Shown here in pieces: positions 10,310 through 21,416 of a DNA stretch of 64,000 bases. The DNA lies in assembly GCF_029866485.1 (NCBI RefSeq), contig NZ_CP092332.1:620001-684000 (forward strand). Reading direction: 5' to 3'. The notes under the pieces were generated by a model that was not told where the DNA came from, did no database searches, and worked only from the letters and a program-made list of their open reading frames with translations. The position numbers and the translations under genes are program-made. Origin of the DNA: Flavobacterium keumense. Its GTDB lineage: Bacteria > Bacteroidota > Bacteroidia > Flavobacteriales > Flavobacteriaceae. The stretch's first letter is position 1. Each line of letters starts with the position of its first letter.

Positions 10310-10563
10310 AAAGTTTGTTAATTCAATTTACGAGGTACGATTTACGAGGTGCGAAGTGGGATGCAGATGTGGGAAATTCAGGAAATCTTATATGTTCTTC
10401 TATTGAGCGAAGCGACCTTCTTTTGTTTCCTTATATGACTTATATGGTTTTCAATTTACGAAATACGATTTACGATTTACGAGGTTGAACACAGATTGAA
10501 GAAATCTTAATAACTAAATCTCTTAATGGTTTAAAATACTTCGCTCCTTTGAGGCAAAAAAAT
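10310..10563. repeat. dispersed intergenic repeat, copy A
   Basis: Degenerate runs of the unit TTTACGAGGTACGA, then a block with 'GATGCAGATGTGGGAAATTC', then a second run of ACGAAATACGATTTACG, followed by 'CACAGATTGAAGAAATCTTAA', 'CTCTTAATGGTTTAAAA' and 'CTTTGAGGCAAAAA' blocks. The same blocks recur at 11642-11800, 13128-13386 and, inverted, at 36779-36866. This fills the gap between rseP and the oxidoreductase. The 16-mer TTATATGACTTATATG is embedded at 10431-10446. Confidence 0.75.
10431..10446. repeat. solo copy of the 16-bp GxxExxY-cassette end
   Basis: TTATATGACTTATATG, identical to the right end of the GxxExxY cassette (20957-20972) and the reverse complement of its left end (20497-20512). 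Here it occurs alone inside a dispersed repeat, with no nuclease gene. Confidence 0.75.
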
Positions 10564-20155: not shown

Positions 20156-20479
20156 TTACAGCATTCCCAACTCTAATTTTGCTTCTTCGCTCATCAAATC
20201 TTTACTCCAAGGCGGATCAAACGTAATCTCTACATCGGCATCTTTTACATTTTCGATGGATTTTACTTTTTCTTCCACTTCTCTTGGCAAACTTTCTGCC
20301 ACAGGGCAGTTTGGAGAGGTTAACGTCATTAAGATTTTTACTTCGTAATCCGTATTTACCATTACATCGTAAATCAAACCTAATTCGTATATATCAACAG
20401 GAATTTCTGGATCGTAAATTGTTTTTAATTTTTTTACAATCGCTTCTCCTAATTCGTTAGTGTCTATTTCTTGTGTCAT
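20156..20479 (-). CDS. MIP18/DUF59 iron-sulfur assembly protein (SufT-like)
   Basis: A 107-residue DUF59-domain protein. It has the family core IYDPEIPVDIYELGLIYDV (about 21-39), then TLTSPNCPVAESLP with the conserved Cys near residue 60, then ADVEITFDPPWS. This family supports Fe-S cluster maturation (SufT/PaaD/MIP18). Its position in the SUF operon fits. Before the GxxExxY cassette arrived, it probably followed sufE directly. Confidence 0.93.
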   Translation of the reverse strand: MTQEIDTNELGEAIVKKLKTIYDPEIPVDIYELGLIYDVMVNTDYEVKILMTLTSPNCPVAESLPREVEEKVKSIENVKDADVEITFDPPWSKDLMSEEAKLELGML

Positions 20480-20496: not shown

Positions 20497-20972
20497 CATA
20501 TAAGTCATATAAATTTTACTTGTAATTACTTAATCTTCTAATCTTCTGTATATTTCGTTAACAATTGTTTTTTGCCCCTCTTAATAGATATTTTTCACAT
20601 TAAAATTAATCAACAACCCTATTGGGGCATTTAATAAGTTCATATAAGTAAGCAATTGTGCTTCGAAAATGGGACTTGTTTCTGCAACCGATTTTAATTC
20701 AACAACAAGTGTGTTTTCAATAAACAAATCACATCTTAGTTTTGATTCTAATTCATAACCTTTATAATTTAACGGAATTAAAAACTCAGACGGATATTTT
20801 ATTTTTCGTAATTCTAATTCTTTTTTAAGACATTGATGATATACACTCTCCAAAAGCCCTGGTCCTAAATTTTTATGAACTTCAATAGCCGCACCATTTA
20901 CTTGGTAAATTAAATCCTTAAGATACGTCCTTGTTATATTCATATTTTTCAAAAACTTATATGACTTATATG
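20497..20972. mobile_element. GxxExxY cassette with 16-bp perfect inverted ends
   Basis: CATATAAGTCATATAA (20497-20512) and TTATATGACTTATATG (20957-20972) are exact reverse complements and bound 476 bp that hold a single gene, the GxxExxY protein. The cassette fills the space between the sufE stop (20980) and the MIP18 start (20479). Without it these would lie about 24 bp apart, as expected for an operon. A third copy of the 16-mer lies at 10431-10446. No transposase is inside. Mobility is inferred, not shown. Confidence 0.55.
20581..20952 (-). CDS. GxxExxY protein, PD-(D/E)XK nuclease-like
   Basis: A 123-residue member of the GxxExxY family, which Pfam groups with PD-(D/E)XK nucleases. The name motif is GLLESVY (residues 32-38). 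The putative catalytic set is Glu35, Asp75 in LRCDLFIEN, and Glu85/Lys87 in VVELK. The C-terminus ends soon after LLINF and is slightly short compared with members that continue into 'lkdGIkRi'. Biochemical function is unproven for the family. It interrupts the SUF operon, is transcribed in the same direction, and lies within a pair of perfect inverted repeats. Confidence 0.9.
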   Translation of the reverse strand: MKNMNITRTYLKDLIYQVNGAAIEVHKNLGPGLLESVYHQCLKKELELRKIKYPSEFLIPLNYKGYELESKLRCDLFIENTLVVELKSVAETSPIFEAQLLTYMNLLNAPIGLLINFNVKNIY

Positions 20973-20979
20973 TTTAATA

Positions 20980-21399
20980 TCATTTTTTGGAGTTGAATGC
21001 CAGGGCATACATTTTTATGTTTTTAATCATCGAAACCAATCCATTAGCACGAGTGGGCGACAAATGTTCTTTGAGTCCGATTTCGTCTATAAAGTCCATG
21101 TCAGCTTCCAAGATATCGGCTGGTTTTTGATTGGAAAAAACCCGAATCAAAATAGCAATAATTCCTTTGGTTAATATGGCATCACTATCTGCGGTAAAAA
21201 CAACTTTGCCTCCTTGTTGTTCACCTTGCAACCACACTTTCGACTGACAACCTTTGATAATGTTCTCCTCTGTTTTGAGTTCTTCTTTGATTAACGGTAA
21301 GTTTTTACCTAGCTCAATGATGTATTCATAGCGCTGCATCCAGTCGTCAAACATCGAGAATTCGTCAACTATTTCTTCTTGTATTTCTTTAATTGTCAT
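20980..21399 (-). CDS. sufE: SufE-family sulfur acceptor
   Basis: A 139-residue cytoplasmic protein that accepts persulfide sulfur from SufS and passes it to the SufBCD scaffold. Landmarks are EIVDEFSMFDDWMQRYEYII, then IKGCQSKVWL with the acceptor Cys near residue 50, then FTADSDAILTKGIIAILIRV and LSPTRANGL. ATG at 21399 is preferred; the longer frame would begin at TTG 21405. It lies 17 bp after the lipoprotein gene, in the sufS operon. Confidence 0.95.
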   Translation of the reverse strand: MTIKEIQEEIVDEFSMFDDWMQRYEYIIELGKNLPLIKEELKTEENIIKGCQSKVWLQGEQQGGKVVFTADSDAILTKGIIAILIRVFSNQKPADILEADMDFIDEIGLKEHLSPTRANGLVSMIKNIKMYALAFNSKK

Positions 21400-21416
21400 A
21401 ATCAAACTTTACTATT

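Follow-up and report, generated by a model that had tools for sequence, protein, structure and literature searches.

GxxExxY nuclease genes between inverted short-unit arrays, apparently a largely overlooked class of very small DNA elements

The stretch of Flavobacterium keumense DNA analysed here (the window; 64,000 nucleotides, positions 620,001 to 684,000 of the forward strand of contig NZ_CP092332.1) carries, between sufE and a MIP18/SUF-associated gene, one small gene of the GxxExxY family enclosed by two exact reverse-complement 16-mers (Table 1). This arrangement, and a third, solitary copy of the 16-mer elsewhere in the window, had been proposed from the letters of the DNA alone; the enclosing pair and the solo copy are exact matches, and profile matches of both neighbours place the unit where it had been said to lie. 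Of the 500 bp that separate sufE from the MIP18 gene, the cassette takes up 476, so that 24 bp are left without it, in agreement with the operon spacing of about 24 bp that the sequence-only reading had given. That reading had also described the 16-mer as a palindromic end with an internal 9-bp direct repeat: the repeat is there, but a single end is no palindrome, the inversion existing only between the two members of the pair. The inverted arms fold into a 21-bp stem. The match of the 16-mer to shuffled sequence is low, with a mean of 1.04 matches even when up to three mismatches are allowed.

Table 1. Features of the GxxExxY unit and its surroundings, in window coordinates
Feature	Position	Strand	Remarks
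5'-side arm of the GxxExxY gene (sense orientation)	20957..20972	-	CATATAAG twice, 9 bp apart; pairing reaches 20952
3'-side arm of the GxxExxY gene	20497..20512	+	exact reverse complement; pairing to 20517 with one mismatch
GxxExxY gene (TIGR04256, PF13366)	20581..20943	-	120 aa from ATG; D72/E82/K84 kept
In-frame remnant after the GxxExxY stop	20530..20580	-	still resembles the C-terminus of relatives
sufE, upstream neighbour	20980..21405	-	profile match
MIP18/SUF-associated gene (TIGR02945), downstream neighbour	20156..20479	-	profile match
Solo 16-mer	10431..10446	-	no GxxExxY gene alongside

The window protein belongs to the GxxExxY family (130 bits against a TIGR04256 cut-off of 35) and matches the PD-(D/E)XK superfamily profile PF13366 with 126.7 bits, whereas a profile search at E 0.001 returned nothing beyond these two models and thus no HUH tyrosine transposase. 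The Asp75, Glu85 and Lys87 pointed out earlier as residues of the PD-(D/E)XK type were recovered in the 123-aa ORF and become D72, E82 and K84 when the protein is read from its ATG, with 120 aa (the alternative start is a TTG at 20952); in an alignment of 39 GxxExxY proteins D72 and E82 are invariant and K84 nearly so. An in-frame stop truncates the window protein about 17 residues earlier than three translated relatives, and since the frame past this stop still reads like those relatives, the window copy has lost part of its C-terminus. A sequence search found no relatives in the PDB. The family has a weak profile similarity to Cas4 (PADLOC Cas4 profile, E 1.4e-05 for the protein of locus L217 and 0.025 for that of the window; Pfam Cas4, matched at E up to 1 by 23 of the 39 aligned proteins, the lowest E being 0.00012), from which the GxxExxY protein differs in being about 120 aa long and framed by its own arrays. 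At least 49 of 61 genomes of the window genus have a GxxExxY gene, as do 73 of 148 in its phylum. A single query protein matched 8 plasmid records out of 72,556 and none of the 50,697 phage records, and on these near-absent matches the idea of GxxExxY genes as phage or plasmid cargo was rejected.

Alignment of the sufE–MIP18 junction in strains lacking the gene had been suggested as a check, and empty sites, such as a homing endonuclease would cut and convert, were indeed found. Among 30 junctions of the genus, taken as the best SufE matches, the unit is present in 10; six are empty, with a spacing of 4–8 bp, including that of G115, which is the closest relative among the 30 (95% SufE identity); and 11 have spacers of 50–155 bp, with array-like motifs in L051, L059 and L060. 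The junctions of three species (L048, L057 and L065) hold inserts of 720–751 bp that give no GxxExxY match. Across the genus the unit was seen at the sufE site in at least 37 of 192 genomes, a lower bound because presence was read by eye (G088 was set aside and six genomes without a SufE match were excluded).

Inverted arms are a property of GxxExxY genes well outside this junction. The arm score used here is that of the best ungapped inverted match between the 250-bp flanks on each side of the gene, with a threshold of 14. This threshold was reached by 70% of 93 loci of the window genus (cross-locus pairs 6.2%, shifted controls 0/64), by 46% of 28 loci of the phylum Bacteroidota (cross-locus pairs 4.1%, shifted controls 0/55) and by 45 of 77 named loci from many phyla (cross-locus pairs 4.5%, shifted controls 2/279), the last being the usable part of the best 80 of 571 loci in one scan of genome contigs. 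No arm pair scored 14 at 32 of the 77 named loci and, within the genus, at about 30% of the 93, the Methanothrix locus scoring 8, and at three of the 45 named loci above threshold (L219, L248 and L292) the matches are unlike arrays. Going by titles, mostly of MAGs, and with some phylum placements presumptive, the 45 armed loci include Acidobacteria, Chlamydiota, Planctomycetota, Verrucomicrobiota, Chloroflexota, Cyanobacteria, Spirochaetota, Nitrospinota, Ignavibacteria, several Proteobacteria and others.

Each arm is a short array of 8–11-bp units. Outside the window clade the commonest unit is CRCNRAG, repeated at a spacing of 8–11 bp and reading forward in the 5' flank but in reverse in the 3' flank; at least two inward-facing copies stand on both sides at 37/91, 20/27 and 49/77 loci of the three sets, as against 0, 4 and 13 loci for the opposite orientation, and TAAC is the most frequent four-base run ahead of the first unit (42/278). 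The sufE-site units lack CRCNRAG (0/10) because their unit is CATATAAG, and even there the arm sequences vary by species (GTCATATAAG, GGCATATAAG, GGCATTTAAG, GTGATATAAG). Within a sufE-site unit the two arms generally agree, with scores of at least 18 in 7 of 11 units and of 16 in L049, 15 in L058 and 10 in L054; L047 was scored as a miss through a gene start misplaced by our script, although its arms are visible. In the sufE-site unit of G012 the arms disagree at one variable base. Apparently the GxxExxY gene of L047 (G074) is itself frame-shifted, close to a short internal duplication. The proposal that GxxExxY genes travel as minimal cassettes is partly supported: many of them form minimal units between inverted repeats, and empty sites occur, but the units mostly keep to conserved places and have no 16-mer in common, each clade having arrays of its own; a fixed 16-mer as universal end is ruled out by the differing units of other clades.

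Arrays of the window type also occur alone. The whole 2.54-Mb genome holds five exact 16-mers and one with a single mismatch (reversed control, none); the exact 16-mer was found in 17 of 60 relatives, all of the window genus, and a wider 17-mer pattern in at least 114 of 199 genus genomes, for which six matches of the reversed control were listed. A search for the 16-mer in the genome and its relatives, as had been advised, thus gave few copies in its own genome but a wide distribution without the gene among relatives. At short spacing, the two variable bases agree in 31 of 42 inverted array pairs (hand-read among the matches listed, one of them, in G017, belonging to a sufE-site unit), against 20.3 when shuffled within genomes, and an agreement of 31 was not reached in 20,000 shuffles. 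The solo 16-mer of the window and those at G000:C1:1305936 and 1307658 share a one-sided extra stretch, gagcgaag.gac, which suggests a separate small repeat family that contains them.

The median density of solo arrays was 3.6 per Mb in 37 genomes with the sufE-site unit (this group being a lower bound) and 0 in 155 genomes without it, a raw association with p 3e-9, and p 0.01 in 30 genomes. Several large genomes contradict it: G008 has at least 99 solo arrays, and G079, G098 and G132 at least 47, 50 and 45, with no match to the window protein at E 1e-25 among the matches listed in any of the four. We do not claim, then, that solo arrays are the product of the sufE-site protein; other GxxExxY genes are present in G008 and G079. 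Array pairs often stand where there is no such gene, even in genomes without close proteins, as would be expected if the arms were MITE-type repeats of some transposase and the GxxExxY genes mere passengers between two of them. We regard this as unlikely. The solo copies do include gene-less short inverted-repeat elements of the MITE kind; unlike the situation for MITEs, no cognate transposase was identified among the loci read.

Passengers, moreover, should vary from one repeat pair to the next, and this is not what was seen when 1.264 Mb of the window genome, in stretches picked partly for the known genes they hold, was scanned for inverted pairs 250–600 bp apart. Four pairs scored above 16, the maximum of the mirror control; of the top three, one surrounds a four-helix-bundle gene and two surround GxxExxY genes, among them that of the window, while the fourth encloses neither kind of gene. 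The third GxxExxY gene within the scanned stretches has an arm score of 15, and the listed four-helix-bundle genes 784157 and 795805 were absent from the scan matches at that score. The framed four-helix-bundle gene (G000:C1:480803-481224) has counterparts: in a sample of such loci (TIGR02436; L099–L128, 29 usable of 30), which have unit types of their own (TTAGT-like and others), 52% score at least 14, with cross pairs at 4.8% and shifted controls at 0/56. Since these similarly framed genes encode no nuclease, they count against reading the unit as a nuclease element. In the same genome, G000:C1:436608-437059 holds a back-to-back palindrome, twice, with AACC ends facing, which resembles abutted element ends, and gene-less CACATAG- and CATTAAG-type arm pairs lie at 856356-856505 and 1235884-1235959 of the same contig; the four GxxExxY genes of this genome use other arm types.

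If the arms belong with the gene, the two should change together, and the protein tree points this way. That tree, a quickly made one whose columns are few and whose branches are long, holds 131 proteins; the 95 assigned to an arm class, the other 36 rows being dropped, require 5 class changes as against a shuffled mean of 37.9 (least 32). When each site is represented by a single row (42 rows), the count is 4 against 14.1 (least 11), the classes in both cases being patterns written after inspecting the arms. One site, bordered by presumed methionine-aminopeptidase-like and methyltransferase-like genes, houses two GxxExxY clades, six rows with CRCRAAG arms and three with CRCRGATT (7 of the 9 loci were read), and another site mixes CRCRGATT (5) with CGAATT (1). 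Considering that the arm class tracks the protein clade and that two clades have different arms at one site, we conclude that it is the protein, not the location, that the arms follow, which speaks against passengers between MITE-type repeats; since arms and gene are linked, plain inheritance explains part of the co-variation. The two arms within one copy are also more alike than are arms of different copies.

The unit is bounded at its arms as well. In DNA alignments of at least 330 bp between copies at different sites (978 directed comparisons), similarity runs more than 20 bp beyond the outer arm border in only 5 cases upstream and 7 downstream, the maximum overrun being 41 and 29 bp, and it stops inside the arms in 915 and 891; the unit is thereby bounded from above, its exact border not being proven. 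Between copies at the same site the alignment overruns the arms in 288 (upstream) and 272 (downstream) of 475. In G005 two units, 79.5% identical across 443 bp, flank one gene, presumably rfbB-like, and this pair points to the copying of a whole unit. These observations bear on whether the arms are simply a host regulatory or structural feature, a terminator or binding site, standing beside these genes and unrelated to mobility. Such a role would suit the tendency of GxxExxY clades towards conserved genomic places, most units remaining at conserved sites and being inherited in place, yet it does not account for the paired, inward-facing geometry, for similarity that ends at the arms, for arms that change together and with the protein, or for a whole-unit duplication, and we think it improbable.

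A further possibility is that the arms act in RNA, forming a stem at which RNase III would cut the GxxExxY part out of the sufE–MIP18 message as an intervening sequence. The unit does lie between co-directional operon genes with arms that give a stem, and an intervening sequence of similar anatomy is known from the 23S rRNA of Coxiella, in which one small gene is reported to be accompanied by heptamer repeats and a terminal stem of 28 bp (PMC4990558). Were an RNA stem under selection, G-U should exceed A-C among arm mismatches in sense orientation, yet the counts were 103 against 106 at 155 loci and, with a tolerant alignment, 160 against 198 at 133 loci (p 0.05, in the direction opposite to an RNA stem); four-helix-bundle loci gave 12 against 14, too few to tell. 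Moreover, the whole window unit folds no better than shuffled sequence (z -1.18, 12 of 100 shuffles being equally good). Given this lack of a G-U excess, the arms seem to matter as DNA; the RNA stem was accordingly given up as the main model, and excision from the message appears a poor explanation. The 23S intervening sequences with S23/four-helix-bundle genes share with the GxxExxY unit a small gene in a terminal inverted-repeat loop with short tandem units alongside (PMC4990558), but they have another protein family and an rRNA location, whereas the GxxExxY unit is intergenic and its arms carry no sign of RNA-stem selection.

The best-supported analogy is that the element may work like a REP/RAYT unit. 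A RAYT gene is reported to be flanked by two inverted short repeats with more copies between genes, the gene clade to be linked to the repeat type, and the gene to be mostly vertical and unseen on plasmids (PMC2817692, PMC8049555); the GxxExxY unit resembles REP/RAYT and REPINs in its one gene, inverted repeats, scattered extra copies, clade–repeat link and mostly vertical inheritance. A gene between two inverted repeat copies is what was found at the window locus, at 70% of the 93 genus loci and at 45 of the 77 named ones, and the repeat type of GxxExxY units is linked to the gene clade. The unit is nevertheless no RAYT, since it encodes a PD-(D/E)XK nuclease instead of an HUH/Y1 enzyme, and its repeats are arrays of 8–11-bp units whereas those of REP/RAYT are single short palindromes.

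We suggest, as a reading that has close to an even chance of being right, a two-part DNA element made up of a PD-(D/E)XK nuclease gene and two inverted short-unit arrays, which the encoded protein probably recognizes. Judging from anatomy and co-variation, the nuclease may bind its own array as DNA, in the form of a hairpin, a cruciform or paired ends, and may cut there; repair after cutting would keep both arms alike and would occasionally copy arms, or the entire unit, into another intergenic gap, the unit otherwise being passed on mostly at its existing site, in the manner of RAYT genes. Against this reading weigh the genomes with many solo arrays but no close protein, the loci at which clear arms are missing, and the shortened window protein. 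More speculatively, such units could be pan-bacterial minimal self-recognizing elements in which a Cas4-like PD-(D/E)XK nuclease replaces the transposase, with clade-specific arrays, arms kept alike by cut-and-repair, and arm pairs, occasionally entire units, that spread into intergenic positions; the four-helix-bundle genes would then perhaps form a parallel class.

Finally, no earlier description of GxxExxY genes framed by such arrays was found in the literature searched, and the framed genes appear to be a class of very small DNA elements that has drawn little attention. The name GxxExxY is a frequent annotation with no known function behind it, and the array adjoining each gene would provide a readable DNA target that makes function directly testable; the framing arrays would in addition go some way towards accounting for the many short arrays between genes, and a system based on a nuclease would join REP/RAYT.
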